This document shows positions 1,048 to 24,233 of a stretch of DNA of 64,000 nt, piece after piece. The stretch comes from an uncultured Opitutaceae bacterium (GTDB lineage Bacteria > Verrucomicrobiota > Verrucomicrobiia > Opitutales > Opitutaceae). A program made the position numbers and the translations under genes. The notes under the pieces are model-generated. The model saw only the letters and a list, made by a program, of their open reading frames with translations. It was not told the origin of the DNA and did no database searches. The DNA is taken from the NCBI GenBank assembly GCA_937902925.1, contig CALFNN010000104.1:124001-188000 (forward strand). The letters are read 5' to 3'. Within the stretch, counting starts at the first letter, position 1, and each line of letters starts with the position of its first letter.

Positions 1048-1539
1048 ATGCGGTCGAAATGGCGGATCTCCCACGCGCAGGGTTACCTCGGCCTCGGCAT
1101 GGTCGCGGAGGCCGCCGCGGAACTCGACCAGATCGCCGAAGCCGAGCGCGACGCGCCGGAGGTGCTCGCACTCCGGCTCACCGTGCTGCAGGAGCGATGC
1201 GAGTGGCCGGCGTTGCGCGCCGTCGCAGCCGAGTTCGTGCGCCGCTCGCCGGCCGAGCCCGCCGGCTGGGTGACGTGGGCCTACGCCACCCGCCGCGCCG
1301 AATCGCTCGCCGCCGCGGAAAAAATCCTCCTCGAGGCCGAGCGGTTGCATCCCGCCGAGGCGACGATCCAGTTCAATCTCGGCTGTTACGCGTGCCAGCG
1401 GGGCGCCCTCGCCGAGGCGCGCCGCCGCGTGAACCGCGCGATCGCCCTCGACAAAAAATTCGCCGCGGCCGCCGCGACCGACCCCGACCTCGCACCGCTG
1501 CGTGCCGCCGGCCACGCGGACTGTCCGCCCAGCGCGTGA
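1048..1539 (+). CDS. Tetratricopeptide-repeat protein
   Basis: This is a 163-residue Ala/Leu/Glu-rich helical protein. It contains TPR-like helix pairs, such as GYLGLGMVAEAAAELDQI near the start and TIQFNLGCYACQRGALAEA towards the end. A closing segment (FAAAAATDPDLAPLRA) is typical of TPR end-of-group proteins. No signal peptide or membrane segment is visible, so a cytoplasmic protein-protein interaction role is likely; no partner can be named. The ATG at 1048 was chosen because the family-like sequence begins there. A GTG at 1000 in the same frame, with a weak AAGGCGG upstream, would add 16 residues. It lies 49 bases ahead of the ABC transporter ATPase and may be co-transcribed, but nothing ties it functionally to transport. 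Confidence 0.7.
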   Translation: MRSKWRISHAQGYLGLGMVAEAAAELDQIAEAERDAPEVLALRLTVLQERCEWPALRAVAAEFVRRSPAEPAGWVTWAYATRRAESLAAAEKILLEAERLHPAEATIQFNLGCYACQRGALAEARRRVNRAIALDKKFAAAAATDPDLAPLRAAGHADCPPSA

Positions 1540-1588
1540 TTTGACAGCCGGAATGCCGTCCGGCGCCATCACGCCTCCCTCCGCTCGA

Positions 1589-3094
1589 ATGTCCGCCGCC
1601 CCGCTCCTCGCCCTCCGCCACCTCGCCAAGTCGTTCGGCGGCGCCCGGGCGCTCCGCGGGGTCGATTTCGACCTGCACGCCGGCGAGGTCCATGCGCTGC
1701 TGGGCGAAAACGGCGCCGGCAAAAGCACCCTGATCAAGATCGTCACCGGCGCACACCAACCCGACGCCGGTTCGATCGCGATCGCCGGGGAGACCGTCGC
1801 GGACCTGACACCCGCCTCCGCCCGCAAACTCGGCATCGCCTGCATTTACCAGCAACCGGCGCTCTTTCCCGATCTCACGGTCGCCGAGAACATCGGCCTC
1901 CGCCTCGAGCCGGCGGCGGCGTTTCGCCGGGTGGCGTGGGCCGCCCGCCGGCGGCGCGCGCAGGAGCTGCTCACCCGGATCGGCGCGGCGGTTTCGCCCG
2001 AGGCCGAGGTGCGCTCGCTCTCGATGCCCGAGCAGCAACTCGTGGAAATCGCGTGCGCGCTCGGCGCCGGCGCGCGCATCGTCATCATGGACGAGCCGAC
2101 GGCGTCGCTCACCCAAAAGGAGCAGCACCTGCTCTTCGCCGTCGTGCACGAACTGCGGAACACCGGCGTCGGCGTGATCTACATTTCCCACCGGCTCGAG
2201 GAGATCTTCACGCTCGCGGATCGCGTGACCGTCTTGCGCGACGGCGAGAGCGTCGGGACGAGCCGGGTCGGCGACATCAACGAATCCGAGCTCATCCGCC
2301 TGATGGTGGGGCGCGAGATGACCCAGATTTACCCGCCCAGCGAATCGGCGCCGGGCGACACCGTGCTGGCGCTGCGCGAGGTCGGATGCCCCGGCGCCGG
2401 CGTGCAAGGCGTCACGTTCGAGGTGCACGCAGGTGAGGTCTTCGGGCTGGCCGGCCTGGTGGGCGCGGGGCGCACCGAACTCGCCCGGGTTCTCTTTGGG
2501 CTGACTCCCGCCACCGTGGGCGAAATCGCCCTCAACGGCCGGCGGGTGGCCGTGCGCTCGCCGCAGGAGGCGGTGGCGCTGGGCATCGCCTACGTGCCGG
2601 AGGACCGGCGCCGGCACGGCGTGGTGCTCGAGCTGCCGATCGCCCACAACATGACGATGGCAATTCACCGGCGGCTGTTCCCCGCCGCCTGGCTGCGCTT
2701 CGCCGCCGAGCGCGGGCTCGCGCTCGATTTCATCCGCAACCTGGCCGTGAAATGCGCCGGGCCCGCGGCGCCCGGCGGCAGCCTCTCGGGCGGGAACCAG
2801 CAAAAGGTTTCCCTCGCGCGCTGGCTCGCGACCAAGCCGCGGCTGCTCATCCTCGACGAACCGACCCAAGGCGTCGACGTCGGCGCGAAGAGCGAGATTC
2901 ACAAGATCATCCGCCGCCTCGCGAAGGACGGGCTCGCGGTGCTGCTCATCTCGAGCGATCTGCCCGAGGTGCTCGGCATGAGCGATCGCATCGGCGTGAT
3001 GCGGGGCGGCCGGCTCGTCGGCATCCTGCCGGGCGGCAGCGACGCCCCCACCGTCATGGCTGCCGCGCTCGGGCAGGAAAAGGGAGCCGCGTGA
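1589..3094 (+). CDS. Sugar ABC transporter ATP-binding protein (RbsA/RhaT/LsrA type, two nucleotide-binding domains)
   Basis: This 501-residue cytoplasmic ATPase powers sugar import for the two permeases encoded next to it. It has the duplicated architecture of the CUT2 family. The first domain carries Walker A GENGAGKST (residues 39-47), the degenerate signature LSMPEQQ and Walker B IVIMDEPTAS. The second has the usual degenerate Walker A (GLVGAGRTE), a good LSGGNQQ signature and Walker B LLILDEPTQGVDVG. The length is normal for the family. The ATG at 1589 was preferred over an upstream in-frame ATG at 1502 because it places the conserved N-terminus correctly and avoids overlap with the TPR gene. 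The stop overlaps the next start by four bases (GTGA), so the genes are translationally coupled. The substrate is discussed under the binding protein. Confidence 0.95.
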   Translation: MSAAPLLALRHLAKSFGGARALRGVDFDLHAGEVHALLGENGAGKSTLIKIVTGAHQPDAGSIAIAGETVADLTPASARKLGIACIYQQPALFPDLTVAENIGLRLEPAAAFRRVAWAARRRRAQELLTRIGAAVSPEAEVRSLSMPEQQLVEIACALGAGARIVIMDEPTASLTQKEQHLLFAVVHELRNTGVGVIYISHRLEEIFTLADRVTVLRDGESVGTSRVGDINESELIRLMVGREMTQIYPPSESAPGDTVLALREVGCPGAGVQGVTFEVHAGEVFGLAGLVGAGRTELARVLFGLTPATVGEIALNGRRVAVRSPQEAVALGIAYVPEDRRRHGVVLELPIAHNMTMAIHRRLFPAAWLRFAAERGLALDFIRNLAVKCAGPAAPGGSLSGGNQQKVSLARWLATKPRLLILDEPTQGVDVGAKSEIHKIIRRLAKDGLAVLLISSDLPEVLGMSDRIGVMRGGRLVGILPGGSDAPTVMAAALGQEKGAA

Positions 3095-4020
3095 ACCGCT
3101 ACTTCCGTGAACTCTCGGTGGCCGCGGCGCTCGCCGTCGTGCTCGCCGCCCTCGCGGTTTTCGCGCCGGCTTTTTATCAACCGCAACCGTTGCTCACCCT
3201 GATCACGGGGCAGGTCGCCCCGACCCTCGTGGTCGCCTGCGGGATGACCCTCGTCATCGTGTGCCGGGAGATCGATATCTCCGTCGGCTCGTCCTTCGCC
3301 ATCTGCGGCGTCTGCGGCGGCCTGCTGCTCAGCCATGGCGTTGCCGTCGCGGTCGCGCTGCCCGCCGCGATCGTGCTGGGCGCGATCATGGGGGCATTCA
3401 ACGGCGCGCTGATCGCCGGTCTCGGGCTGCCCTCCATCGTCGTGACCCTCGCCACCATGGTGACGTGGCGCGAGGCGCTGCGCTGGCTGCGCCAGGGCGT
3501 GTATGTGAACATCGGCGGCGCGCAATGGTTCGGCCTCGATCAGGCGGCCGGGCAATGGACCATGATCGTGGTCGCGCTGGCGATCCTGCTTCCGCTCGCC
3601 TGGGCGACGAAGCACCTCGCGGCCGGCCGCTTCGTCTACGCCGTGGGCACCGACGCGGAGGCGGCGCGGCTCGCGGGCATCCGGCCGCGGCTGGTGACGT
3701 TTCTCACCTTCGTCCTGATCGGGGCATTCACCGGTCTCGCGGCCATGATGGCCGCCGTGCAATCGCCCCAGGTGGACCCGACGGCCGGCACCGGCCTCGA
3801 GCTGCGGACGATCGCGGCGGTGGTCGTCGGCGGCGTGTCGATCTCGGGCGGGCGCGGAAACCTTTGGGGCGTGCTCGCGGGCCTGCTCCTGTTGTCGAGC
3901 ATCAACCCGGCGCTCACCTACCTCGGCGTCTCGGCCTATTGGGAAAAAGCGATCCAGGGCGCGATCATCCTCCTCGCCGTCGTGGCCGACGGGCTGCGGA
4001 GCAGAAAACAGAAGCACTGA
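3091..4020 (+). CDS. Sugar ABC transporter permease (RbsC/RhaP/LsrC type), first of two
   Basis: This 309-residue inner-membrane permease belongs to the BPD_transp_2 family. About eight to ten hydrophobic segments are visible, beginning with AAALAVVLAALAVFAPAF. The family signature REIDISVGS and the later VVVGGVSISGGRGN segment (the ATPase-coupling region in this family) are both present. The start is a GTG overlapping the ATPase stop codon by four bases; no ATG is suitably placed, and the hydrophobic N-terminus begins directly after it. It ends five bases before the second permease. With its partner it should form the heterodimeric channel for the sugar delivered by the binding protein. Confidence 0.93.
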   Translation: MNRYFRELSVAAALAVVLAALAVFAPAFYQPQPLLTLITGQVAPTLVVACGMTLVIVCREIDISVGSSFAICGVCGGLLLSHGVAVAVALPAAIVLGAIMGAFNGALIAGLGLPSIVVTLATMVTWREALRWLRQGVYVNIGGAQWFGLDQAAGQWTMIVVALAILLPLAWATKHLAAGRFVYAVGTDAEAARLAGIRPRLVTFLTFVLIGAFTGLAAMMAAVQSPQVDPTAGTGLELRTIAAVVVGGVSISGGRGNLWGVLAGLLLLSSINPALTYLGVSAYWEKAIQGAIILLAVVADGLRSRKQKH

Positions 4021-4024
4021 CCAC

Positions 4025-5074
4025 ATGCACCCGGACAAAAGCGGACTTAAAAAACTTCTCCTCCGTCACGAGGCGCTGCTGCTGGTCGTGCTCGTCGCGG
4101 AGTGGGTGTTTTTCTATTTCCGCGGCACCACCACGAATTTCAGCGGCCACACGGTCGGGTTCGGGACGGCGGGCGCACAGGTCGACATCCTGCGGCACTC
4201 CTGTGAAATCGGCCTGCTCGCCCTCGTGATGACGCCCGTCATCCTCACCGGCGGGATCGACCTGTCCGTCGGTTCGCTGATGGGACTCAGCGCGGTCGTC
4301 TTCGGCAAGCTGTGGCGCGACGCCGGGCTGGCCTACCCGGAGGCGATCGCGGCCACGCTCGCCCTCGGCGCGCTCGCCGGCGGGCTGAACGCCGCGCTCA
4401 TCACGTGGCTGCGCCTGCCGCCGCTGATCGTCACGCTCGGGACGTTCTCGCTGTATCGCGGGCTGGCGGAGGCGCTCACCCGCGGCGCGGACACCTTCAC
4501 GGGATTCCCGCCGGCGTTCCAGTCGCTGGGCCAGGGCGAATGGCTCGGCCTGCCCGCGCAACTCCTGGTGTTCGCCGGGGTGGCGATCGCGATCTGGCTG
4601 CTGGTGCATCGCACCACGTTCGGCCGGTCGTTTCGCACCATCGGTTATTCGCCCGAGGGTGCGCGCTATGCCGGCCTGCCCGTGGGCCGACGCGTCGCTC
4701 TCGTCTACATTCTCGCGGGGCTCGGGTCCGCGCTGGCGGGATTGATCTTCACCGCGCGGCTCAACCAGGCCGGGGCCAACGCCGGCACGGGCTACGAGCT
4801 CTTCGCCATTACCGCGGTCGTGCTGGGCGGCACGAGCATTTTCGGCGGCAGCGGCAGCGTGCATGGCACCTTGCTCGGCTGGGCGGCGGTGGCCGTCCTC
4901 AGCGACAGCCTCCCCTACGTCGACTGGCCGCGCGAGGTGGGCGGCATGCTGACCGGGCTGCTGCTGATCGTCGCGCTTTCGGCCAGCGTGCTCCCAAAAT
5001 TCTTGTCAGCGTGGCGCGCGCATCGTCACTCTGTCCGTTCCCCCAACCGTCAACCGACTCCGTCCTCCCCATGA
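4025..5074 (+). CDS. Sugar ABC transporter permease (RbsC/RhaQ/LsrD type), second of two
   Basis: This 349-residue inner-membrane protein is homologous to the preceding permease. It has the signature TGGIDLSVGS near residue 80, repeated hydrophobic helices and the AVVLGGTSIFGGSGS coupling segment near the C-terminus. It has a basic N-terminal tail (MHPDKSGLKKLLLRHE) and a Ser/Pro-rich C-terminal tail. The ATG at 4025 follows the previous stop closely. The stop overlaps the binding-protein start as ATGA. Two distinct permeases plus one ATPase is the arrangement of the rhamnose and autoinducer-2 transporters rather than of the ribose type, which uses one permease. Confidence 0.93.
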   Translation: MHPDKSGLKKLLLRHEALLLVVLVAEWVFFYFRGTTTNFSGHTVGFGTAGAQVDILRHSCEIGLLALVMTPVILTGGIDLSVGSLMGLSAVVFGKLWRDAGLAYPEAIAATLALGALAGGLNAALITWLRLPPLIVTLGTFSLYRGLAEALTRGADTFTGFPPAFQSLGQGEWLGLPAQLLVFAGVAIAIWLLVHRTTFGRSFRTIGYSPEGARYAGLPVGRRVALVYILAGLGSALAGLIFTARLNQAGANAGTGYELFAITAVVLGGTSIFGGSGSVHGTLLGWAAVAVLSDSLPYVDWPREVGGMLTGLLLIVALSASVLPKFLSAWRAHRHSVRSPNRQPTPSSP

Positions 5075-7019: not shown

Positions 7020-8147
7020 CTACTTCCCGCCCGCCAGCGCCGGAGCCCTGGCGAGTCGATAAATCTCGCTGCCCGCGAGCAGCAACGCGCCAACCCCGTA
7101 GGGCTCGGTGGCGTTCTCGTCGAATTTTTTCGGGTCGGCGCCGATCGGCTGCACGTGGATCAGACGGCCGTCGGGCTCCACGCATGTGCCGACCGCCGCC
7201 CACGCCTTCAGGGCGACGGGCAGCGTCGTCCCGCGATCGAGCAGCCCGTGGTTCACGCCCCACGTCAGCGCATAACAGAAAAATCCCGTGCCGCTCTCCT
7301 CCTTCGCCGGATAGTTCGCCGGATCGAGCAGGCTGGAGCGCCAGAAGCCGTCGTCCTGCTGCAACGCGACAATCCGCGCGGCCATCTCGCGAAACTGCCG
7401 CTCGAGGCGCGGGCGCGCCGGATGGTCCGCCGGCAGGTATTGCAGCACGCGCACGAGGCCGCCCATCACCCAGCCGTTGCCCCGGCTCCAGAAGATCTTT
7501 TTTCCGTTGGCCTCGCGTTTGTCGAAATAGGTGGCGTCGCGGAAATACAGGTGCTCGTCCCGGTCGTAGAGGAAATCCGACGTCTTCCACCAGTTCTCCA
7601 CGGCGAAATCCAGGTAGGCCTGTTTGCCGGTGGCCTTCCAGACCCGCAGCCATGCGGGCGGCCCCATGAAGAGCGCGTCGCACCACCACCAGTTGATGAC
7701 GCGCTGCGGGCTGTTGAACTCGCGCCCGACGGGCGTCGGATGCGCGAGGATGGCGTCGAATCGCTCGGTCGCCGGCGCGATCAGGGTCGCATCGTGATGG
7801 CGGAGGGAAAGCTCGGCATAGGTCTGGACCACGCAGTAATCGTCCGCGTGGTAAACACGGCTCCCGGGCTTCCATTGGTTCTCCGCGCCCATCTTCATCA
7901 TCGCCTCGTCGAACCGCGGACTCTCCGAGATCCCCGCGAGGGCCATGATACCGGTGTAGCCCGCCGCCTGGACCCAGCCGTCCTTCGGCCGGTTCGCCGC
8001 GGGATGCACGAGCTGCCAGTCGGCCACGCGCTCCATCACGGCGAGCACTTGCGTCGCGTCGGGCACCGGTGGCGCCGGTTCGGCAGCCGGCGCAGTGCAA
8101 TTCATGAAAATTAACCCGGAAAGCGGGAGGAGCAGTGGGAAACGCAT
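7020..8147 (-). CDS. GH105 unsaturated rhamnogalacturonyl/glucuronyl hydrolase
   Basis: This 375-residue exported glycoside hydrolase would remove the 4,5-unsaturated uronic acid left at the non-reducing end of pectin fragments by lyases. The fold is an alpha6/alpha6 barrel in this family. Visible motifs are HADDY (residues 100-104) and WWWCDALFM with Asp157, which align with the two active-site Asp positions of YteR-type enzymes, followed by WSRGNGW and DGFWRSSLLDP. The N-terminus (RFPLLLPLSGLIFMN) is a signal peptide. It is followed 83 bases upstream (in transcription order) by a second GH105 gene, and the pair is convergent with the gene at 6130. The exact uronyl-sugar preference cannot be read from sequence. 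Confidence 0.93.
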   Translation of the reverse strand: MRFPLLLPLSGLIFMNCTAPAAEPAPPVPDATQVLAVMERVADWQLVHPAANRPKDGWVQAAGYTGIMALAGISESPRFDEAMMKMGAENQWKPGSRVYHADDYCVVQTYAELSLRHHDATLIAPATERFDAILAHPTPVGREFNSPQRVINWWWCDALFMGPPAWLRVWKATGKQAYLDFAVENWWKTSDFLYDRDEHLYFRDATYFDKREANGKKIFWSRGNGWVMGGLVRVLQYLPADHPARPRLERQFREMAARIVALQQDDGFWRSSLLDPANYPAKEESGTGFFCYALTWGVNHGLLDRGTTLPVALKAWAAVGTCVEPDGRLIHVQPIGADPKKFDENATEPYGVGALLLAGSEIYRLARAPALAGGK

Positions 8148-8230
8148 GGGGAGTTGGCTTGATTCGCGTCGCCCGGCTCCGGCGTCCGATCTGGAACCGG
8201 GCCGCCGCAGCCTCGCGAAGGAGGGGACGA

Positions 8231-9364
8231 CTATTTGCTAACCAGCCGGTAAACCTCGCTGCCGGCCAGCAGAAAACACCCGAGGCCGTAGTCGGTGAAG
8301 TCGGGCTTGCTCTCGTAGGTCACGGGCTGGCCCTCGGAGGGCTGCTTGCCCGTGCCCTGCACGAAACCGAGAAAACCATCCGGGTGCAGGGCCTCGCCGG
8401 CCATCGCGTTCCACGCCTTCATGACGATCGGGCGGTAGGTGGCGGCCGGCAGGAGCCCGTGACGGACGCCCCAGGCCATGCCATAGGTGAAGAGCGCGGT
8501 GCCGGAAGTTTCCTTGCCGCCAAAATTCGCCGGGTCGTGCAGACTCGCATTCCAGAAACCGTCGGAGCGCTGCACGGCGGCGAGCGCCGCGGCCATGTCC
8601 TTCACCGTCTGCTCATACTCCGCCCGATGCGGCGCATCCGCGGGCAGGACGTCGAGCACGCGCACGAGCGCGGCGAACACCCAGCCGTTGCCGCGCGACC
8701 AGTAGCAACTCTGGCCGTTCGGCTCCTTGTAGGGCGGCACGAAGTCCTTGTCGCGCCACCAGAGGTGCTCGGTCGGGTTGTAGAGGCCGCTGCCGCCGTG
8801 CTTCGTTTTCGTGTAGGTGTAGATCGCGTGGGCCTTCTCGAAATACTTCGGGTCCTTCGTCAGCGCGCCGAGTTTTGCGAACGCCGGCATCGACATCTGG
8901 ATCGCGTCCACCCACGACCAATCGTCGACTTTTTCGCTGGCGACCATCGCGTCGATGCTGGCCTTGATGTCGTGCAGTCGCTCCGGTTTCGCTTCGACCT
9001 GGTAGAGGTCGAGGTAGGTCTGCCCGCAACACTGGTCGTCGGCATTGCGCGTGCGCGCGCCGCTGCGCAGCCCCCATTTGTGCGCCTCGCCCCATTTCAC
9101 CGCATAGTCGTAGTAACGCGGATCGCGATCGACGTCGTGGAGTGCCATCAGTCCCTCGTAGTAGACGGCGCGCGTCCAGATGTTGCTCGGCCGTTCGCGG
9201 TTCGTGACGATCGCTTTGCCCGGGTCCGGCCACTCCTGCATGAAGTGCGCGTTCGCCAGCCGCATCTTGGCGAGCACCGCCTCCGCCGGCGGAGCCTCCT
9301 GGGCGCCCATCGGGCAGGCGGCGGCAAGCAGGGCGACGGTCAATGCAGTCTGGTAGGGTTTCAT
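8231..9364 (-). CDS. GH105 family glycoside hydrolase, second copy
   Basis: This 377-residue exported enzyme is homologous to the neighbouring GH105 protein but clearly diverged. It carries NADDQCCGQ and WSWVDAIQM (the two active-site Asp positions), WSRGNGWV and DGFWNASLHDP. The ATG at 9364 begins a signal peptide (YQTALTVALLAAACPMGAQ). An upstream in-frame ATG at 9430 would put 22 non-signal residues in front and is not used. It is first in a two-gene minus-strand unit. The divergence between the two copies suggests different substrates, for example unsaturated rhamnogalacturonan versus another uronyl disaccharide; that is inference. Confidence 0.92.
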   Translation of the reverse strand: MKPYQTALTVALLAAACPMGAQEAPPAEAVLAKMRLANAHFMQEWPDPGKAIVTNRERPSNIWTRAVYYEGLMALHDVDRDPRYYDYAVKWGEAHKWGLRSGARTRNADDQCCGQTYLDLYQVEAKPERLHDIKASIDAMVASEKVDDWSWVDAIQMSMPAFAKLGALTKDPKYFEKAHAIYTYTKTKHGGSGLYNPTEHLWWRDKDFVPPYKEPNGQSCYWSRGNGWVFAALVRVLDVLPADAPHRAEYEQTVKDMAAALAAVQRSDGFWNASLHDPANFGGKETSGTALFTYGMAWGVRHGLLPAATYRPIVMKAWNAMAGEALHPDGFLGFVQGTGKQPSEGQPVTYESKPDFTDYGLGCFLLAGSEVYRLVSK

Positions 9365-9513
9365 CGGGCGAACAGGGGTGGGTGACGAAAACGACGACGA
9401 AGGCAGAGACCGCGACAGCGGGAAAGGCAACCACCGTCAGACGGTCCGACGCCTGCCAGTGGAATTTGGTTTTGCGACCCGGGGCGGAGCCGTCTCTGAT
9501 TCGTCCGCTCAAA

Positions 9514-14398: not shown

Positions 14399-15502
14399 TC
14401 ACGCTTCCGCGCGCAGTTGTTGCAGCAGGGCCTGGATGTAGCCGAAGCAAAAGGCGAAGGCCTTTTGGCCGCCGGTGTCGCCCGCGATCTGCGGCACATG
14501 GTCCGGCATCACCATCCCGTCGAACCCGACCTCGCGATAGGTCCGCAGCGCCCGGGGCAGGTCCACGTCGCCGTCGTCGGGCAGCGTCTCGGTGAACTTG
14601 AGGTAACCGCCGCGGATGTTGCGAAAATGAACGTTGAAGATTTTCCCGCGGCTCCCGAAGTAGCGGATCACATCGTGGATTTCGTCGTTCGGCTTCGCGA
14701 GCATCTCGGACACCGTGCCCTGGCAGAAATTCAGCCCGTGATACGGGCTCGGGACCGTGGCCACGAAGCGTTTCAACCCGTCCACCGAACCGAGCACCGT
14801 ATGGACACCGCGCCAGCCTGTCTCCCGCGGCATCGCCGGATCCTGCGGGTGCAGCGCGATCCGCACCTTCGCCTCCTCCGCGACGGGCACGACGCGTTTC
14901 AGGAAATACTCGATGCGATCCCAATAAACCTCCTCGCTCACCGCGCCCGCCTCCGTCAGCGGCGGTTCCTGTTTCGTCGCGGCGTAGTCGAAGTGGCTCA
15001 GGCTCGCCCCGCCCCGCCCCGGCACCCGGCCGGTGCGGACGACGCCGATGAACGTGAGGTTGTATTTCACGAGCGGGATGCCGGCCCGGCCGCAATTGCG
15101 GATCATCTGGCGGATGTTCTCGATCGCCCGGTCGCGGGCCGGATCCTTCGCCAGCAGGATTTCGGGCAGCTCCGCCTTGGAAATCTCGTTCGAACTCATC
15201 GGCAGCGGCACCGCATCGAGCTGCACCCCGAACGACTCGACGTGCTGCCGCAGTCGCGTCAGCGCGTCGACCGACCACTCGTCCATGTTCGCCGAAAGGT
15301 GGCCGCTGCAAATATGGTTCACGCCAAACGCCGCCAGCGTGCGCAGGGTTGCCTCCGAGTGATCGTGCTGGTGCCCCACTTTCATCGATACCGGTCGCTT
15401 CGCCGCCGTCGTTCCGGCAGTCGCGGCGCCGGTGGCGCAACCCGACAGGCTCACAGCCGCTGCTCCCGTGGCAATATTGCCCAAAAATTCCCGGCGTTTC
15501 AT
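14399..15502 (-). CDS. Mannonate dehydratase-like (UxuA family) protein with an export signal
   Basis: This 367-residue TIM-barrel protein is of the UxuA family, which dehydrates D-mannonate to 2-keto-3-deoxygluconate in uronate breakdown. The four metal-ligand positions of the family are visible: His218 in IALHPQDP, Cys260 in LNFCQGT, His292 in NVHFRNIRG and Asp334 in VMPDHVP. Unusually, it starts with [17 protein letters not shown] followed by LSGC, a twin-arginine-type signal with a lipobox at residues 19-22. Known UxuA enzymes are cytoplasmic, so this copy may be exported or lipid-anchored. Activity on mannonate is therefore not certain; a related sugar-acid dehydratase or isomerase is possible. 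It is convergent with paralogue B. Confidence 0.82.
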
Positions 15503-16848: not shown

Positions 16849-16942
16849 GGGAGGAATGACGGGGCGAGGAACGGGTATCCAGAGACGACCGGACCTTAGG
16901 CGCCCGCGCCAAAAACGCAAGCGACGCCCGCACCGCGGCGGC

Positions 16943-17953
16943 TTAGCGCACTCCGCCGCCGGCAGCGAGCAACCGGTCGAGCACCTCGGCGTTGCGCAGC
17001 GATTCCGCCAGACCGAGCAGCGGTGCGCGCCGCCCGGCGAGCGCCGCGGAAAAATCCTCGACCTCGAGGCGGTAACGATCGCTCAAGGCGACCGGGATCT
17101 CGCGCTTCTCCTCGCCAGTCGTCAGGGTGAGCGCCCCGGCGTGGTCCAAAAACGTGTCAGGCACTTCCAGGATTCCCTTCGTCCCGATGATTTCCGATCC
17201 GATGCGCTTGTGTGCCTCGAACCCGCAATGCAGTGCCGCGATCAATCCCCCCGGGTAGCGCAACAGCGCCGAGAAGCCCACGTCCACGCCGCTGGCGCGC
17301 ACCGCCTCGGCCGCGACCGATTCCGGCGCGGGCCCGGTGCCGGCCGGTCTTCGCGCCGCCTCGTCCACGACCAGGCCGATGAAGTTGATCGGATAACAGC
17401 CGACATCGTAGAGCGCGCCGCCGCCGAGCTCCGGCTTGAGCTTGATCGAGGCCGGATTGCTCAGGAAAAACCGAAACGTCGAATTGATCTGCCTCACCTC
17501 GCCGAGCACGCCGCTGCGCAGCACGTCGATCACCTGCCGCATGCGGTCCGTGTAGCGATACATGAACGCCTCCATCAGCATGACGCCGTGCGCCGTGGCC
17601 GCCGCCACCATCTCGCGGCACTCGGCGGCAGTGAGCGCCAGCGGCTTCTCGCAGAGCACCGGCTTGCCGTGCGCCGCCGCCCGGATCGCCCACTCGCGGT
17701 GCAGCGCGTTCGGCAGCGGGAGATAGATCGCGTCCACGTCCTTGTCGCACAGCAGCTCTTCGTAGTCGCGATAGGTCCGCGTCACGCCGGGAAACGCGGT
17801 GCGGACCTCGGCCAGTTTTGCATCCTCCCGCGACGCAATGGCGAAGAATTCCGCCCCCGCGGCACGCCGGATCGCGGGGATCAACTCGGTCCGCGCAATG
17901 CGGGCGTAGCCCAGAATGCCCCAGCGGATTTTCCTCGGTCCGTCGTTTGTCAT
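16943..17953 (-). CDS. Gfo/Idh/MocA family sugar dehydrogenase (last gene of the sugar-acid operon)
   Basis: This 336-residue NAD(P)-dependent oxidoreductase has an N-terminal Rossmann fold (IRWGILGYARIART), the family motif CEKPLALT with the catalytic-region Lys, and MLMEAFMYRYTDRM followed by the GALYDVGCYPINF segment with the conserved Asp-x-x-x-Tyr type motif. The overall pattern is close to xylose/glucose dehydrogenase-like members. There is no signal peptide. The ATG at 17953 overlaps the stop of the ADP-ribosylglycohydrolase gene as ATGA, so translation is coupled. As the last gene of the six-gene unit it may carry out the first oxidation of the imported sugar; the substrate is unknown. 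Confidence 0.9.
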   Translation of the reverse strand: MTNDGPRKIRWGILGYARIARTELIPAIRRAAGAEFFAIASREDAKLAEVRTAFPGVTRTYRDYEELLCDKDVDAIYLPLPNALHREWAIRAAAHGKPVLCEKPLALTAAECREMVAAATAHGVMLMEAFMYRYTDRMRQVIDVLRSGVLGEVRQINSTFRFFLSNPASIKLKPELGGGALYDVGCYPINFIGLVVDEAARRPAGTGPAPESVAAEAVRASGVDVGFSALLRYPGGLIAALHCGFEAHKRIGSEIIGTKGILEVPDTFLDHAGALTLTTGEEKREIPVALSDRYRLEVEDFSAALAGRRAPLLGLAESLRNAEVLDRLLAAGGGVR

Positions 17954-19113
17954 GATTCTTCCAGCGCTGCGAGTTCGCTGTCGGCGGTTCGCGATTTCTC
18001 CAGTTCGTTCAGGCACGCGCGGTGCAATCCCTCGGCTTCCTCGCGCATCGTCCGTTTCGAAACCGTGTAGGGATCGGTGAGCACCGCCTGTTCGACCGTC
18101 TTCACCCAGTCCGCCGGCACCGCTCCAATCCCGCGCAACGCCCCGGCGAAACAGCCCGCGGTGTAGGCCTTGCAGTCCGTGTCCCGGCCGAAGTTGACCG
18201 CGTAGAGGATCGCCTCGCGCGGCTGGCCGTCGGCGAGGATGAAGCACGCCAGTCCGCCCGAGAAAACCTCCATCGCATTCGAGATCGGCTGCCCCTGGAA
18301 ATAGTCGGTGTAGCGCTCGCGCATCTTCTTCCAGTCGCCCTTCGCTTCGCGCGCCCACGCCACCATCGTGTCCGGATCTTTCCGTCCTTCGCGCGGGATC
18401 TGCGCCAGTGCCGTCGCCACGATGGAATCGACCGTCGCCTGCGGTCGCAACGCCTCCGCCGTCGCGGCCGCGATTGCCGCGGCGACTTCGTTGCCCCAGT
18501 CCCACACCAGCGAGCTATGCACGATGCCGTCCTCGCCGAATTTGTCGTTCCGCCAGATCGGCCGGCCCTGCGCATCCTTGATCCGCGCGAGGTCGAGCGC
18601 ATCGCGGGCCGCGTTGTCAGGCCGGCAGGCGTTCACGATGCCGATCGGCACGATCATCTTCGACGTGCCCATGAAGCCCGGCCACTTCGCGTAGCGGCCG
18701 ACCTCCCACGGCGGCAGTCCGCCCTTGAGCAGGTTGTAGATGATCAAGTCCTGCGGGCCGACATGATAGCCGAATTTTTCCGGATCGATCCCCTCGATCC
18801 ATTCGCGCGCGAGGTCCTCGATCGCGATCCGCCCGCCTTTCTTGATGATCGCCGAGACGACCAGCTTGTAACGCTCCATCCCGTCCTCGGTCCAGCCGGG
18901 CTCGCGGTGATACGCCCGGTAAACCCAGTCCTCGCCGAAACGTTGCGGGCTGACCTGGTCTTTTTCGAAGCGGTCGCCGGGGAGAAACGTGTCCACGAAC
19001 CCGTGCTCCCGTTCGATCTTCTGCCACGTCCAGCCCTCGACCGGCTCGCCCATCGAGTTGCCGATCGCGGCGCAGGCTTCGCAACCGTAGATCTTGTCGA
19101 ACAATTTGCTCAT
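17950..19113 (-). CDS. ADP-ribosylglycohydrolase family protein within a sugar catabolic operon
   Basis: This 387-residue cytoplasmic protein has the ADP-ribosylglycohydrolase (DraG-like) fold signature. The N-terminal part is ACAAIGNSMGEPVEG (residues 14-27), the metal region is GWTEDGMER (73-81) in place of the usual TDDT, and the C-terminal GRDTDCKAYTAG (309-320) replaces GGDTDT; the Asp residues are kept. Members of the family hydrolyse N- or O-glycosidic bonds to ADP-ribose, but this one sits between a sodium symporter (one base gap) and a sugar dehydrogenase (ATGA overlap). A role as a glycoside-cleaving enzyme for the imported substrate is therefore a reasonable inference. The ATG at 19113 is the first after the symporter stop. 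Confidence 0.88.
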   Translation of the reverse strand: MSKLFDKIYGCEACAAIGNSMGEPVEGWTWQKIEREHGFVDTFLPGDRFEKDQVSPQRFGEDWVYRAYHREPGWTEDGMERYKLVVSAIIKKGGRIAIEDLAREWIEGIDPEKFGYHVGPQDLIIYNLLKGGLPPWEVGRYAKWPGFMGTSKMIVPIGIVNACRPDNAARDALDLARIKDAQGRPIWRNDKFGEDGIVHSSLVWDWGNEVAAAIAAATAEALRPQATVDSIVATALAQIPREGRKDPDTMVAWAREAKGDWKKMRERYTDYFQGQPISNAMEVFSGGLACFILADGQPREAILYAVNFGRDTDCKAYTAGCFAGALRGIGAVPADWVKTVEQAVLTDPYTVSKRTMREEAEGLHRACLNELEKSRTADSELAALEES

Positions 19114-19114
19114 C

Positions 19115-20776
19115 TCAGCACACGTGCAGCACGACTGCCACGATACCGGCCAGCGCCGCCGCGAGAAGCCCGGAAATCGCCGCCAGCGCACCGGCCGACA
19201 GCCGTTTCGCCGGCACGAAACTCACCAGCGCCGCCGCACTCATCTGCACCGCGAGGATGACGATCATATAGAATGTGAAACTGATCCCCTTCCGCCCGGT
19301 GAACACCTGCCAGTAGGACGTGAGCACGCCCAGCGCGAAGCCGTAGATCACCCCCCACACCACCGCGAAAGGCGTCACACCGAACCGCGCCAGCATCGCG
19401 CACAGCACGATGCCCAACTCGAGCGGGATGAAGAGCTGGATCGTCCGCGAGGTCACTTCGACGAAGTTGCCGGGCACCAGCCCGACGAGCAGGCTGAACC
19501 CAATCACGATCGCGCCGATCACCAGCGACAGGACGATCGCGAAGCGTTTCCGCTGCGCCTCCGTCGCCTCGCGCTCGCCGTGCCGTTCGACGAAATCGTT
19601 CATCACGACGACCGTGAACGCGTTCACCGCCGAACTCACCCCCGACATTCCCGCCGCGAGGATGGCCGCCGCCACGACACCGGAAAGCCCGACCGGCAGT
19701 TCGTGCGCGATGAAATACGGAAACAGCCGGTCCGCATACGAGGTGAGCGTCTGGCCCGGCGGCATCGCCTCGGGGAACCGCTGGTAAAACGCCATCAATG
19801 CGAGCCCGATCATCACGAGAAACGCCCAGATCACATTCGACCCGATGATGCGGATCAGCACCGAACGCCGCGCCTGTTTCACGTCGGCCGAGGCAAGATA
19901 GCGCTGCACCTGCGACTGGTCGACGCTGTGCGCCGTGTCGAGCATCATGCCGCGCAGGAGCGACCCGAACAGCGTCAGCCGGATCGTGACGTCCCAGCTG
20001 AACGCCGGCTGCGGCTGCCACTCCGGACTCCAGTGCGTCGGGAACCACCCGAACCCGTGAAAGCGCAGCGTCACGATCGCGAGTGCCGCGATGATGCCGA
20101 AAAACAAAATGAAGAACTGCAGCACCTCGGTCACCATCACGCCGCTCAGCCCGCCCATCGCCGTGTAGCAGATGACGATCAGGCCGGTGACGACCGTGAT
20201 CGCCGGAATCGCCCCCGGCCCGAACCCGAGCGTCACGCTCATCGCATCCGCCGCGAAGTGCATCAGCAGCCCCATCCACACGAGCCGGTAGAGCATGAAC
20301 ATGCAGGCGCCGAGCGTGCGGATGCCGGACCCGAGCCGTGTTTCGAGGAATTGATAGAGGCTGATCAACCGCTGTTTCAACAGCAGCGGAATCAGCCAGT
20401 AGCCGATGAGCGGAAACACCAGCGGCCCGCCGATCAATTGTCCCCAATAAATTCCCGGGCCGTAGCGGATCGTCTCGCCCGGACCCGACAGGTAGGAGAT
20501 CGTGCTGAACAGCGTCACGAACATCGAGATTCCGATCGTGAACGAACTGAATCGCCGCCCCCCGAGGAAATATTCCTTCGTCGTCTTGCCGCGCCCTTTC
20601 TTCGACTCGCGCCAGCCGATGCCCAGGATCGTCGCGATGTAGAGGGCGAGCACGCCCCAGTCGACCAGATCCATCTTTCCCGAGCGCGTGCCGCCTGTCT
20701 CCGCCGCCCGCGCCGCCGATCCGCCCGCCGCCACGAACCACAGGCCGGCGGCGAGCAACTTGGGGCGAAACGTCAT
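19115..20776 (-). CDS. Sodium/solute symporter (SSS family)
   Basis: This 553-residue inner-membrane transporter has about 13 to 14 hydrophobic segments. Recognisable family parts are DWGVLALYIATILGIGW, EYFLGGRRFSSF, ISMFVTLFSTISYLSGPGE and, in the middle, AAAILAAGMSGVSSAVNAFT, the conserved sodium-site region of SSS transporters. The 34 residues before Met35 look like a signal peptide (FRPKLLAAGLWFVAAGGSAARA), an extension often absent from other SSS proteins; a start at 20674 would give the usual length. It lies 38 bases after the reductase gene and one base before the ADP-ribosylglycohydrolase start. The substrate is presumably the sugar or sugar acid processed by the operon. Confidence 0.92.
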   Translation of the reverse strand: MTFRPKLLAAGLWFVAAGGSAARAAETGGTRSGKMDLVDWGVLALYIATILGIGWRESKKGRGKTTKEYFLGGRRFSSFTIGISMFVTLFSTISYLSGPGETIRYGPGIYWGQLIGGPLVFPLIGYWLIPLLLKQRLISLYQFLETRLGSGIRTLGACMFMLYRLVWMGLLMHFAADAMSVTLGFGPGAIPAITVVTGLIVICYTAMGGLSGVMVTEVLQFFILFFGIIAALAIVTLRFHGFGWFPTHWSPEWQPQPAFSWDVTIRLTLFGSLLRGMMLDTAHSVDQSQVQRYLASADVKQARRSVLIRIIGSNVIWAFLVMIGLALMAFYQRFPEAMPPGQTLTSYADRLFPYFIAHELPVGLSGVVAAAILAAGMSGVSSAVNAFTVVVMNDFVERHGEREATEAQRKRFAIVLSLVIGAIVIGFSLLVGLVPGNFVEVTSRTIQLFIPLELGIVLCAMLARFGVTPFAVVWGVIYGFALGVLTSYWQVFTGRKGISFTFYMIVILAVQMSAAALVSFVPAKRLSAGALAAISGLLAAALAGIVAVVLHVC

Positions 20777-20814
20777 GGGGTAAGTCGGGGTTGAAAGCTG
20801 CGCCTCGCCCGCCG

Positions 20815-21717
20815 CTACCCGCTAAATCGAAACTTGCCGCGCTCCTCGAGCGCCCGGCTCATCGCCTGCGTGCCGAGTTCGGCGCCGCCAGCCTCGGCCA
20901 CGGCGCGGAGGTATTTTTCCGCGAGCGCCGCGCCCTCCAGTGGCAGCGCCACCTCGTCCGCCGCGCGCTGCGCGATGCCGAGATCCTTCAGCATCAGCTT
21001 CACCGCAAATCCCGGCTTCAGGTCGCCCGCAAAAATCTTCGCACCGTAATTCTTCAACTGCTGCGACGCCGCCCCGCCGCCCCCGAGCACCTCGACCAGC
21101 TTCGCCGGATCGACGCCGAGCTTCTTCGCCAGCGCCGCCGCCTCGCACACGCCGAGCAGGTTGCACCCGACGGCGACCTGGTTGCAGGCCTTGCAGGCCT
21201 GCCCCATCCCGACGGGTCCGAGATGCGTGATCGATTTTCCGATCGCCTGGAAAAGCGGCAGGCCGCGCAGGAACACCGCCTCGTCGCCCCCGACCATGAT
21301 CGAAAGCGTCCCCTGCGCCGCACCCGCCTGCCCGCCGGAAACCGGCGCGTCGAGAAACTCGATCCCGCGCCCGCGCAGTTCCGCGGCGATCTGCTGCGCT
21401 TCCTGCGGCCCGATCGTCGAGTTGTCGATGACGACCGTGCCCCTGGCCAGATGCGCCGCCAGTCCGCCGGGTCCCAGCAGCACCTCGTGGACCGCCGGCC
21501 CGTCGCTCAGGTTCAGGAATATCGCCTCGCACCCGCTCCGCCCGAGCTCCTCGAGCGAGCCCGCCACGGCGGCGCCGCGCGCCGCGAGCCCCGCCGATTT
21601 CGCGGGCGTCCGGTTCCACACGGTCACGGCCAACCCCGCCTTCACCAGGTTGCCCGCGATTCCCGCCCCCATCGTGCCCAGCCCGATGTAGCCGACTTTC
21701 GTGATGGGCCCGCTCAT
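20815..21717 (-). CDS. 3-hydroxyisobutyrate dehydrogenase-like / tartronate semialdehyde reductase-like enzyme
   Basis: This 300-residue beta-hydroxyacid dehydrogenase has the Rossmann motif VGYIGLGTMG (residues 8-17), the substrate motif DAPVSGGQAGAAQGTL and the catalytic-Lys segment GMGQACKACNQ. The length is standard for the family. The enzyme would interconvert a 3-hydroxy acid and a semialdehyde, such as tartronate semialdehyde and glycerate, with NAD(P)H. Its start overlaps the stop of the Ldh-type gene by four bases. In the operon it fits the reduction of an aldehyde released by the RraA-like aldolase; that is inference. Confidence 0.9.
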   Translation of the reverse strand: MSGPITKVGYIGLGTMGAGIAGNLVKAGLAVTVWNRTPAKSAGLAARGAAVAGSLEELGRSGCEAIFLNLSDGPAVHEVLLGPGGLAAHLARGTVVIDNSTIGPQEAQQIAAELRGRGIEFLDAPVSGGQAGAAQGTLSIMVGGDEAVFLRGLPLFQAIGKSITHLGPVGMGQACKACNQVAVGCNLLGVCEAAALAKKLGVDPAKLVEVLGGGGAASQQLKNYGAKIFAGDLKPGFAVKLMLKDLGIAQRAADEVALPLEGAALAEKYLRAVAEAGGAELGTQAMSRALEERGKFRFSG

Positions 21718-22766
21718 GACGGAAACGCCACGCCGTATTCCCCGCCGAGTTTCGTGAGGTCTTCGATCACCGCCGGCCCGAGCGCGATGCCGCCGCGCAG
21801 GTTTTCCGCCTCGCGCCGGTGCTCGATTTCGCCGGGATAAAACACCTCGGTATGGCCGGGCGCCGGTGGGCACGCCTTCATTTCGCCGAGGATTGTCTCC
21901 ATCCGCCGCTCGAACTCCGGCAGCGGCATGATGCTCGCGATATTCCAGGCACCGAGGAAGAAACCGAGATTCTGCGGATGCTCGAAATCCTTCCAAAAGT
22001 TCCGCGTGTGCGCGCTCGTCAACGCCCCGCTCAGGCCGGCGACGAGGATGTCGATGATCAACGCGAGCCCGTAGCCCTTCGCGCCGCCAAACGGCAGCAT
22101 TGCGCCCTTCAGCGCGAGTTCCGGATCGGTCGTCGGATTGCCCTCGGGATCGACCGCCCAGTCGGACGGGATCGTCTTTTTCCCTTCCTTCGCGGCCAAA
22201 ATGATTTTCCCCTGCGCCACCGTGCTGGTCGCCATGTCGAGGACGAGCGGCCGGTATTTGCCCGACGGGATCGCGATCGACAGCGGATTCGCGCCGAGGA
22301 TCGGCTTCCGCCCGCCGGTCGGCACCATCGTCGCCCCGGCGTTGGACATCGCGAGACCGATCATGCCCTCGGCCGCGGCCATTTCGGTGAACGAGGCGGC
22401 GATGCCAAAATGGTTGCCGTTGTTGACGGTGGCGAAACACGCCCCGGTTTCCTTCGCGCGGCCGATGCAAAGCTCCATCACCTGCCGGCCGATCCACATG
22501 CCGTTGCCGTTGCCGCCGTCGATGGCGAGAAACGCCGGCGCCTCGCGCACGACGCGCGGCGCCACGCCCGGCTTCACGACGCCGCATTTTACGCGCGTCG
22601 CATATGTGCGCAATCGCATCAGCCCGTGCGAGTCGACGCCGCGCAGGTTCGCGAGCACGAGGTTGCCCGCGAGGCACGCCGCCTCCGCGGCACTCAGCCC
22701 GGCGCTCTGCAGGAGTCGCGTCGTGAAATCTTTCAGGGTCGCGGCGGAAAGTCTCGTCTGGCTCAT
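21714..22766 (-). CDS. Malate/L-lactate dehydrogenase family (Ldh_2) oxidoreductase
   Basis: This 350-residue cytoplasmic NAD(P)-dependent dehydrogenase is of the Ldh_2 family (malate, ureidoglycolate and 2,3-diketogulonate dehydrogenases). The diagnostic region is RGVDSHGLMRL with the catalytic His, followed by NNGNHFG, LGANPLSIAIPSG, VLDMATSTVAQGK and PFGGAKGYGLAL. Length and start are normal. It lies 18 bases after the RraA-like gene, and its stop overlaps the next start (ATGA). Enzymes of this family oxidise 2-hydroxy acids; here a sugar-acid intermediate is likely. Confidence 0.92.
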   Translation of the reverse strand: MSQTRLSAATLKDFTTRLLQSAGLSAAEAACLAGNLVLANLRGVDSHGLMRLRTYATRVKCGVVKPGVAPRVVREAPAFLAIDGGNGNGMWIGRQVMELCIGRAKETGACFATVNNGNHFGIAASFTEMAAAEGMIGLAMSNAGATMVPTGGRKPILGANPLSIAIPSGKYRPLVLDMATSTVAQGKIILAAKEGKKTIPSDWAVDPEGNPTTDPELALKGAMLPFGGAKGYGLALIIDILVAGLSGALTSAHTRNFWKDFEHPQNLGFFLGAWNIASIMPLPEFERRMETILGEMKACPPAPGHTEVFYPGEIEHRREAENLRGGIALGPAVIEDLTKLGGEYGVAFPS

Positions 22767-22784
22767 CGTTGGTGGCGGCGGCCG

Positions 22785-23441
22785 TTATTTGTCGTCGAGG
22801 CCGAGTTCCTTGAGCACCGGCCGCATGCCGAGCAGGTCGAGCGTCAGCTCGCCTTTTCTTAGCCGCGCCATGATCGCCTCCTCCTTGACGCGGATCTCGT
22901 GCACCTTCGCGATGGCCGCGTCGAGTTCCGCCGCCGGGACGATGACGACCCCATCCACGTCGCCGACGACGATGTCGCCCGGCGCCACGTGCACACCGGC
23001 GATCGTGATGGGCTCGTTGAGCGTGCCTTTCTGCTTCTTGGTCGTGCCCTTGATGCAGATGCCGCGGGAGAAGATCGGAAATTTCAGCCGCGTGATCGCA
23101 TCGATGTCCCGCACGGCTCCATCCGTGACAAGTCCGCGAATGCCGCGAACCTGCGACGCCACGGTGATGATCTCGCCCCAGATCCCCGCCTCGAGAAACC
23201 CGTCGACCGTCGCCACCAGCACGTCGCCCGGCTGCGCGATGCTCACCGCCTTGTGCAGCATCAGATTGTCGCCGGGTGAGGTGCGGACGGTGAGCGCGCG
23301 GCCCATGATCTTCGCGCCCGGCCAGGCGGGCTTCACGTCGTGGTTCAGCGCCCCGCGCTTGCCCAGCGCCTCGTGCAGGAGGGCCGCCTCGGCCACCGGC
23401 TCCAGTTTGGAAAGCAACACCGAGATCGATTCTTCAGGCAT
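22785..23441 (-). CDS. RraA-like aldolase (HMG/CHA aldolase family), first gene of the sugar-acid operon
   Basis: This 218-residue protein of the RraA/HMG-aldolase fold has the conserved metal and substrate motifs PGDVLVATVDG, GIRGLVTDGAVRDID (with Asp and Arg of the active site) and GDIVVGDVDGVVIVP. Such proteins either cleave 4-hydroxy-2-oxo acids to pyruvate plus an oxo acid or, in the case of true RraA, regulate RNase E. The catabolic neighbours favour an aldolase or decarboxylase. The ATG at 23441 follows a purine-rich stretch; a longer frame to 23558 would cross the palindrome at 23528. It begins a minus-strand unit of six genes. Confidence 0.9.
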   Translation of the reverse strand: MPEESISVLLSKLEPVAEAALLHEALGKRGALNHDVKPAWPGAKIMGRALTVRTSPGDNLMLHKAVSIAQPGDVLVATVDGFLEAGIWGEIITVASQVRGIRGLVTDGAVRDIDAITRLKFPIFSRGICIKGTTKKQKGTLNEPITIAGVHVAPGDIVVGDVDGVVIVPAAELDAAIAKVHEIRVKEEAIMARLRKGELTLDLLGMRPVLKELGLDDK

Positions 23442-23548: not shown

Positions 23549-23702
23549 ACGGTTGCATTTAAAGGTTGTTTTTTCGGGTCGCGCGCCGTCCCCCGGGCGA
23601 GGCGACTCCTCCGCTTTGTTCCCTGCCTTGACGTAAAAAGTCCCCCGCCCGCGGCCGCCTTCCATCGGGAACCGGGCGCCCAACCACGCCTCTAAATAGG
23701 GT

Positions 23703-24233
23703 ATGAACACGACCAACAGCCAGCATTCACCAAGCCTCCTCGTGGCGCTTTCCCTCGCGGCCTTGACCGCGGGCTGCGTCGGCACCGGCCCAAACACCCA
23801 GCAGGGCGCGGTCGGCGGCGCGGCCCTCGGCGCGGTGGCCGGCGCAATCATCGGCAACAACAGCGGCAGTCACAACGCCCTCGGCGGCGCCGTGATTGGC
23901 GGCGTGGCCGGCGGTCTCGCCGGCGGCGCCATCGGCAACGCCCTCGATCATCAGCGCGGCACGATCTATACCTCCGAGGCCCAGGCGACGACCGACTATG
24001 CCGTGGAGGCGCCGCCACCCCCGCCCGCCCCGCCGCGCGAAGTCGTCGTCCAGCGCGCGCGCCCGGAGCGCGATGTGATCTGGGTGGACGGCTACTGGAT
24101 CTACGAATCCCACGGCTACTCTTGGATTCCCGGCCATTGGGAGCGCCCGCCGGAGCGCCGCATGGCATTCGTTGCCCCGCACTGGCAGCATCGCGGCGGC
24201 ACGTATATTTACGTCCGCGGCTACTGGCACTGA
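23703..24233 (+). CDS. Glycine-zipper lipoprotein with Trp/Tyr repeat, paralogue of 49935-50447
   Basis: This 176-residue probable lipoprotein has signal SLLVALSLAALTAGC with a lipobox ending in Cys. It continues with VGTGPNTQQGAVGGAALGA and a glycine-zipper region (residues about 40-80) of small residues at four-residue spacing, predicted to pack in or against a membrane. A Pro-rich linker (PPPPPAPP) leads to a Trp/Tyr-rich ending with VDGYWIYE, SWIPGHWERPP, APHWQH and VRGYWH, a YXW-type repeat. Its paralogue near 50 kb has the same order of parts. It probably works in the envelope; the function is not known. Confidence 0.85.
   Translation: MNTTNSQHSPSLLVALSLAALTAGCVGTGPNTQQGAVGGAALGAVAGAIIGNNSGSHNALGGAVIGGVAGGLAGGAIGNALDHQRGTIYTSEAQATTDYAVEAPPPPPAPPREVVVQRARPERDVIWVDGYWIYESHGYSWIPGHWERPPERRMAFVAPHWQHRGGTYIYVRGYWH

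Follow-up and report, generated by a model that had tools for sequence, protein, structure and literature searches.

A six-gene operon-like cluster with an ADP-ribosylglycohydrolase-fold protein in an uncultured Opitutaceae bacterium, possibly for catabolism of a sugar derivative

Six minus-strand genes in a contig of an uncultured Opitutaceae bacterium (Verrucomicrobiota; assembly GCA_937902925.1, contig CALFNN010000104.1, positions 124,001 to 188,000) encode an aldolase, three dehydrogenases, a symporter and a protein with the fold of the ADP-ribosylglycohydrolases (ARH) (Table 1). Here we report a computational analysis of these genes and their relatives in other genomes; the whole stretch of 64,000 nucleotides is referred to as the window. 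An earlier note on this DNA had described the genes as tightly packed or joined by ATGA overlaps, had assigned them to six families, and had regarded them as one operon-like unit of catabolic families. The same gaps and coordinates were recovered (18, −4, 38, 1 and −4 bases from RraA to Gfo/Idh/MocA), each family assignment lies over its Pfam curated cut-off, and the operon-like unit, which rests on this packing and on Pfam, is upheld. The spacing suggests that the six genes are co-transcribed. Their G + C contents (0.646-0.703) bracket that of the window (0.663), and the neighbour upstream of RraA (23703-24233) is divergently oriented. A scan of the region yielded no sigma-70-like promoter (0 vs 0.4 expected), and a hairpin scan yielded 7 terminator-like sites vs 5.5 (standard deviation 2.9) in shuffled sequences; since such sites are about as frequent as in the shuffles, the hairpin behind the last gene carries no statistical weight. 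The search copies of two proteins (P0003 and P0005) had one surplus leading residue each.

Table 1. Genes and associated feature of the cluster, in order of transcription (positions in the window).
Feature	Position	Strand	Remark
RraA-family aldolase	22785-23441	−	gene 1; alternative longer start at 23558 possible
Ldh_2 dehydrogenase	21714-22766	−	gene 2
HIBADH-family dehydrogenase	20815-21717	−	gene 3; 4-bp ATGA overlap with Ldh_2
SSS-family symporter	19115-20776	−	gene 4; 553 amino acids
ADP-ribosylglycohydrolase-fold protein (ARH)	17950-19113	−	gene 5
Gfo/Idh/MocA dehydrogenase	16943-17953	−	gene 6; 4-bp ATGA overlap with ARH
Terminator-like hairpin (weak)	16921-16936	−	directly behind the stop of Gfo/Idh/MocA

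The RraA protein exceeds the curated cut-off of Pfam PF03737 (RraA-like; 151.7 bits) and passes the NCBIfam model NF006731 (HMG/CHA aldolase / oxaloacetate decarboxylase; 201 bits, cut-off 179), while the other five proteins stay under every NCBIfam equivalog cut-off. It matches the structure of the HMG/CHA aldolase of P. putida F1 (3NOJ) at E 6.3e-38. The description of that enzyme names R40, N71, H75, G101, R123, D124, G144, T145, K147, R195 and E199 (PMC5065237), and nine of these eleven residues are identical in the window protein (N71, H75, G101, R123, D124, G144, T145, K147, E199), in which R111-D112 is the catalytic/metal pair. Because most of the named residues are kept, RraA most likely functions as a class II pyruvate-type aldolase. 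An RraA of 48% identity in another genome of this order (G423; locus L127, 8369-10028) adjoins a PrpF-family gene and possibly belongs to a different acid pathway.

The Ldh_2 protein (PF02615, 393.1 bits) is a member of the NAD(P)-dependent 2-hydroxyacid dehydrogenase family; its nearest solved structures are a Thermus type 2 malate/lactate dehydrogenase and an L-sulfolactate dehydrogenase, the model of which (NF040650) it does not reach (244.4, cut-off 500). The HIBADH-family protein matches NAD_binding_2 (PF03446, 168.9 bits) and NAD_binding_11 (PF14833, 106.6 bits), and its best NCBIfam match is tartronate semialdehyde reductase (TIGR01505; 249.6 bits, under the cut-off of 340.75). Its nearest solved structure is 3w6u, titled 6-phosphogluconate dehydrogenase, NAD-binding protein, followed by the tartronate semialdehyde reductase 1yb4; it is 41% identical to GlxR, and among its top plasmid matches several bear the annotation 2-hydroxy-3-oxopropionate reductase. 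Aligned with 1yb4, it has the DAPVSGG segment and the presumably catalytic lysine of the GQxCK segment, features common to the wider HIBADH family. Judged by these likenesses, it is probably a beta-hydroxyacid dehydrogenase of tartronate semialdehyde reductase-like type. The Gfo/Idh/MocA protein (PF01408/PF22725; GFO_IDH_MocA, 85.9 bits) is by family an NAD(P)-dependent sugar dehydrogenase and has D-xylose 1-dehydrogenase Gfo6 (NF041392) as best NCBIfam match, with 118 bits against a cut-off of 350, and an uncharacterised oxidoreductase and a sugar 3-ketoreductase as nearest structures. The symporter exceeds the cut-off of PF00474 (SSF; 92.4 bits, cut-off 22.8) and falls short of TIGR00813 (145.5 bits, cut-off 184).

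The ARH protein, the only one in its genome, matches PF03747 (ADP_ribosyl_GH) with 109.9 bits (cut-off 26.2). Its predicted structure (pLDDT 93.2, pTM 0.92) has the ARH fold: a fold search returned MJ1187 (Z 34.6), ARH3 (Z up to 33.8) and DraG (Z 33.6), and the alignments of the model with these three proteins cover 289-304 residues at Z 31.5-34.6 with root-mean-square deviations of 2.5-3.1. The matches within the family include two kinds of non-enzyme members of complexes (FtsHi motor, mitoribosome); weak matches, such as those with methyl-coenzyme M reductase (Z 3.6-6.2), were disregarded. The sequence carries the motifs T75-E76-D77-G78...R81 and G309-R310-D311-T312-D313-C314. The invariant positions in an alignment of 48 members of the subfamily include G22, E26, N307, G309, R310, D311 and D313, and conservation reaches at least 90% at T75, E76, D77, G78, R81, T312 and C314. 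According to a study on ARH3, the metal ligands of that enzyme are T76, D77, D78, D314, D316 and T317, and its pair of metals holds the ribose by the 2''- and 3''-hydroxyls (PMC8141533). With the residue register taken from the MJ1187 and DraG alignments, the window protein has T75, E76, D77, D311, D313 and C314 at these positions; four of the six are identical, and the ARH3-type set is broken by the replacement of D77 by E76 and of T317 by C314. Because the ARH3 metals hold ribose hydroxyls and two of the six ligands differ, ARH likely keeps an altered two-metal site for a sugar diol. The subfamily is poorly studied and often lies beside sugar genes, so its members may be sugar-releasing enzymes. 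The earlier note had singled out ARH as the unusual gene and had suggested that it may cleave a glycoside in place of ADP-ribose; its sugar-gene neighbours and altered active-site motif agree with a probably metabolic function.

One scan of genome contigs found 84 ARH relatives among 127 pattern matches, of which 80 were kept, in records named as Paenibacillus and other Bacillota, Chloroflexi, Planctomycetes, Acidobacteria, Armatimonadetes and others. The closest relatives are found in two Acidobacteriota (60-64% identity in G497, 61% in G499), and a protein from Latescibacteria has 51%. Among 37 other close relatives the best match had an E value of 2e-7, and matches at E 1e-20 or better occur in 2 of 387 genomes of the phylum, the source genome included. 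In the phylum to which G497 belongs, 2 of 396 genomes have a match at E 1e-50 or better, one of them being G497 itself. ARH of this kind is rare near home and widespread otherwise, and horizontal gain is possible. Four matches to this type of ARH lie in the Bryobacterales genome G497 (L016, L176, L177), of which two form a tandem and one is truncated where its contig ends; three of the four start with a segment that by eye resembles a signal peptide, and these proteins may act outside the cytoplasm.

The genes around ARH were counted at 83 loci, after removal of one (L178) that lay on the same contig as L060. Searches by tblastn with the window's own proteins (E 1e-5, loci of 3 to 21 kb), which overlook the more divergent members of such large families as well as genes past the ends of short contigs, found Gfo/Idh/MocA at 11 loci, RraA at 2, HIBADH at 2, Ldh_2 at 1 and SSS at none. 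In a separate tally, 82 loci were selected and 6 dropped where a crude gene caller had missed ARH; the remaining 76 gave 220 same-strand neighbours, of which 128 (within two genes, 130-900 amino acids) were scanned. The commonest were permeases of sugar ABC transporters (16), followed by other ARH proteins (14), RpiB (6), FAD oxidoreductases, solute-binding proteins and PCC (5 each), with GH116 and sulfatases (3 each), nucleoside hydrolases and enolase-type proteins (2 each) being rarer. A Microvirga plasmid combines sugar ABC genes, HIBADH and a more distant ARH (27.7%) with galactonate dehydratase.

The association of ARH with RpiB across phyla is the more interesting by-product of the analysis. 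An RpiB gene is present at 17 of the 83 loci, and at nine, from several phyla, an RpiB/LacAB-type isomerase lies close to ARH, that is, with a match within 1.5 kb and a tolerance of 300 bases (L012, L019, L034, L054, L058, L060, L061, L089 and L094). The density of RpiB in the source genome (2 in 5,998,283 bases) predicts about 0.1 such loci, a comparison that is no p-value because the ARH loci share ancestry. A [CS]VEHD[DN] segment (VEHDD/VEHDN) is present in an RpiB at 14 of the 17 loci, the others having an HND/HNN form; three of the nine close loci carry the HND form, which we take to be canonical. Among 77 loci without ARH, RpiB was found only at L137 and at one further place, represented by both L159 and L167, and the VEHDD motif is also present in the RpiBs next to a HIBADH-RraA pair (L167) and in an RraA/Ldh_2 cluster (L137). 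A literature search for RpiB together with ADP-ribosylglycohydrolase found no paper. At L060/L178, where ARH adjoins RpiB, both N-termini resemble twin-arginine signal peptides by eye. We propose, tentatively and with considerable doubt, that the ARH subfamily with TEDGxER and GRDTDC motifs comprises unrecognised metal-dependent sugar-releasing glycosidases that are partnered with RpiB (often VEHDD/VEHDN) across several phyla and feed a modular pathway of an RpiB-like isomerase or Gfo, Ldh_2, RraA aldolase and tartronate semialdehyde reductase-like HIBADH, of which the present operon would be the oxidative version.

The RraA, Ldh_2 and HIBADH genes recur together in other genomes. RraA lies directly before Ldh_2 on four of ten opened plasmid records (Aminobacter, Paracoccus, Azospirillum and Mesobacillus), and about 3 kb after it on a fifth from Alkalihalophilus, in a row of TRAP, Ldh_2, iron-containing alcohol dehydrogenase, aldehyde dehydrogenase, RraA and D-glycerate dehydrogenase. 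All five cassettes hold the iron-containing alcohol dehydrogenase, the aldehyde dehydrogenase and a transporter (TRAP; ABC in Mesobacillus), and three of them list glycerate enzymes (glycerate kinase in Azospirillum, D-glycerate dehydrogenase in Mesobacillus and Alkalihalophilus), which fits a glycerate-type end product. The same stretch of the Mesobacillus plasmid (L137) has a HIBADH-family gene directly after another RraA, plus RpiB. The ten records, out of 175 with an Ldh_2 match, came mostly from the top of the list and included two already showing RraA, so that five in ten overstates the frequency of the RraA-Ldh_2 association. The identical order and lengths of the genes in the cassettes of Aminobacter and Paracoccus (L134, L135) suggest that these were exchanged recently. 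A HIBADH-family gene precedes the best RraA relative both in G497 (51%) and in G499 (49%), the two genomes that harbour the closest ARHs; the pair in G499 is flanked by a divergent VEHDD-type RpiB and followed by a gene that by eye resembles an iron-containing alcohol dehydrogenase. A Caldilineae locus of about 10 kb (L036) contains ARH, HIBADH, two RraA, an HpaI aldolase, an aldehyde:ferredoxin oxidoreductase and Ldh_2, and its HIBADH passes the tartronate semialdehyde reductase model TIGR01505 (370.8 vs 340.75). RraA, HIBADH and Ldh_2 thus occur together at two further loci (L036, L137), with ARH present once (L036).

Within the order of the source genome, RraA (E 1e-25 or better) was found in 4 of 132 genomes and Ldh_2 (E 1e-40 or better) in 18, the source genome included in both cases, and in the 3-4 kb loci around these matches the two genes are adjacent only in the source genome and, divergently, in G472, where the pair adjoins a gene resembling NRPS by eye. 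Two genomes of one genus of the order (G427, G485) have Gfo within 1.5 kb of an Ldh_2 relative. A further genome of the order (G193; L128, 5702-12844) has SSS, RraA, Gfo/Idh/MocA and DHDPS close together, without Ldh_2 or HIBADH, a combination akin to that of the window but not the same. Outside the order, 15 matches to Ldh_2 reach E 1e-30 or better in the Latescibacteria genome of L017 (G498).

There is about an even chance, in our judgement, that the six genes form an operon for the import and catabolism of a sugar derivative, either a glycoside or a sugar acid, along the following lines. The symporter would import the derivative with sodium, and ARH, probably a glycosidase, would hydrolyse a glycosidic bond by means of its two-metal site and free an aldose. 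The Gfo/Idh/MocA protein would oxidise the sugar, and Ldh_2 would oxidise a 2-hydroxy acid to the 2-keto acid. RraA would then split a 2-keto-4-hydroxy acid by retro-aldol cleavage into pyruvate or hydroxypyruvate and an aldehyde, and HIBADH would reduce a three-carbon product resembling tartronate semialdehyde or hydroxypyruvate to glycerate, such that the operon would end in pyruvate and glycerate. We infer the substrate, the order of the steps, the direction of the dehydrogenases and the reaction of ARH.

Several results weigh against this interpretation. The complete set of six genes was not found at any of the 83 ARH loci, and the core genes are so rare there that the putative link of ARH to the RraA/HIBADH/Ldh_2/SSS pathway depends mainly on one distant locus; the few occurrences of Gfo, HIBADH, RraA and Ldh_2 may be chance. 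On the contigs covered, which for G497 measure only about 4 kb, the closest ARHs of G497 and G499 do not lie beside core genes. No Ldh_2 was found in G497 at E 1e-30 or better; that of G499 lies on a separate contig, with no RraA within the 7.6 kb examined. Among eight ARH genomes searched, Ldh_2 (E 1e-30) was present in four and RraA (E 1e-20) in five. Five of the ten opened plasmid Ldh_2 records have no RraA relative nearby, neither Ldh_2 nor HIBADH relatives were found near RraA on the two opened plasmid RraA records, and the two plasmid RraAs that were scanned fit NF004850, whereas that of the window fits NF006731. HIBADH, Ldh_2 and Gfo reach no equivalog cut-off, and RraA has K in place of R40 and I in place of R195 of the HMG/CHA aldolase. 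A kinase, a lactonase and a dehydratase are absent among the six genes, and the seven enolase-type matches in the genome are all on other contigs; the chemistry is incomplete unless the missing genes lie elsewhere. The claim of the earlier note that the six genes serve one pathway is thus borne out in part: the RraA/Ldh_2 and RraA/HIBADH pairs recur and all three genes meet at L036 and L137, while the full set is found nowhere else. Separation of the genes in relatives, which the note had named as the result that would speak against it, was largely observed for ARH, and not for the RraA/Ldh_2/HIBADH core. Its statement that no known pathway matches holds for the complete set, on which literature searches found no paper.

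A further point against a single pathway is that two units packed into one transcript fit the data almost as well: RraA, Ldh_2, HIBADH and SSS would form a pathway for a sugar acid (2-hydroxyacid) in which no glycosidase is required, and ARH and Gfo would be a later, unrelated addition. We consider such an arrangement a possible, although lesser, candidate. It agrees with the recurrence of the RraA/Ldh_2 and RraA/HIBADH pairs without ARH nearby, with the lack of RraA, HIBADH, Ldh_2 and SSS at 80 of the 83 ARH loci (the exceptions being L011, L036 and L043), and with Gfo being the commonest of the five partners there (11 of 83). However, the 1-bp and 4-bp junctions of SSS, ARH and Gfo suggest translational coupling, L036 joins ARH to core genes, and the shared type of RpiB connects both sets of loci.

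Two other explanations concern single proteins. ARH might control the pathway instead of feeding it, by stripping a protein or small molecule of ADP-ribose or a related group. Such a role would suit the predicted fold, shared with ARH3 and DraG, and the identity at four of the six metal-ligand positions of ARH3; we regard it as improbable, given that E76 and C314, which replace D77 and T317 of ARH3, are at least 90% conserved across the subfamily and that the neighbours of ARH are often genes of sugar transport and isomerisation. A role of the operon in aromatic catabolism, with RraA acting as a genuine HMG/CHA aldolase in the 4,5-cleavage pathway of gallate or protocatechuate, is very improbable. 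The score of RraA over the NF006731 cut-off and the PrpF-family neighbour of the G423 protein speak for this, but RraA falls short of the LigK/PcmE equivalog TIGR02798 (186.6, cut-off 304.5), the operon partners are of sugar type, and the source genome (95.07% complete) has no match to the ring-cleavage enzyme LigB (PF02900), which makes the aromatic pathway of the HMG/CHA aldolase unlikely.

The default annotation of proteins with the ARH fold is that of protein de-ADP-ribosylating enzymes. If this subfamily is metabolic, such annotations would be misleading for its members in Bacillota, Chloroflexota, Planctomycetota, Acidobacteriota and Verrucomicrobiota, and a sugar-catabolic route would exist that is directly testable. 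The recurring RraA/Ldh_2 and RraA/HIBADH pairs likewise point to a testable aldolase role for RraA-like proteins, which are sometimes named RNase regulators.

The window holds other genes for carbohydrates. An ABC transporter (ATPase and two BPD_transp_2 permeases; 1502-5074) and two GH88 genes (7020-9430) make up a carbohydrate-degradation neighbourhood. Further pectin-type genes are an arabinofuranosidase and a GH43 at 32-36 kb and an oligogalacturonate lyase at 58 kb; together with an oligogalacturonate lyase at L018, at a distance of about 1.7 kb from ARH, they are a hint, at most, of a plant cell-wall source of the substrate. Downstream of the operon (14399-15502) lies a gene for a UxuA/xylose-isomerase-like TIM barrel protein with an N-terminus of exported type by eye, and two similar small genes for glycine-rich lipoprotein-like proteins are located at 23703-24233 and 49935-50447.

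Among known systems, the plasmid cassettes of RraA, Ldh_2, iron-containing alcohol dehydrogenase, aldehyde dehydrogenase and transporter resemble the operon in their RraA (35-41% identity) and Ldh_2 (41-44%), in the presence of a transporter and, in four of five, in having RraA directly before Ldh_2. They differ in the use of TRAP or ABC transporters instead of SSS, in the extra alcohol and aldehyde dehydrogenases, in the RraA subfamily where scanned, and in the lack of ARH or Gfo relatives (E 1e-6) within the 13 kb stretches; literature searches on the function of these cassettes found nothing in print. In the galactarate/glucarate pathway (GarL-GarR), a 2-keto-acid aldolase is followed by tartronate semialdehyde reductase. 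The aldolase and the tartronate semialdehyde reductase-like HIBADH of the window resemble this lower part, but the aldolase is of a different family, the operon adds Ldh_2, Gfo and ARH, and no sugar-acid dehydratase of the galactarate/glucarate type is among the six genes, the enolase-superfamily matches being confined to other contigs.

With the HMG/CHA aldolase of P. putida F1 (3NOJ; PMC5065237), RraA shares the sequence family, R123/D124 and seven more named residues; it differs at R40 (K) and R195 (I), and its genome has no LigB match. FlDet, a dehydratase/decarboxylase of the oxidative DEHU pathway, is according to its description 20% identical to the HMG/CHA aldolase and acts on a uronate-derived 2-keto-3-deoxy sugar acid (PMC8563752). 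It is likewise an RraA-family enzyme, and the HMG/CHA-like RraA of the window is set apart from it on the basis of that published description. In the E. coli yegTUV operon, the gene functions of which are described as unknown, a kinase takes the place of the dehydrogenases and the aldolase (PMC10819704). The likeness, drawn from gene content, lies in the same assortment of a putative transporter, an ARH-family protein and a sugar enzyme in one operon.

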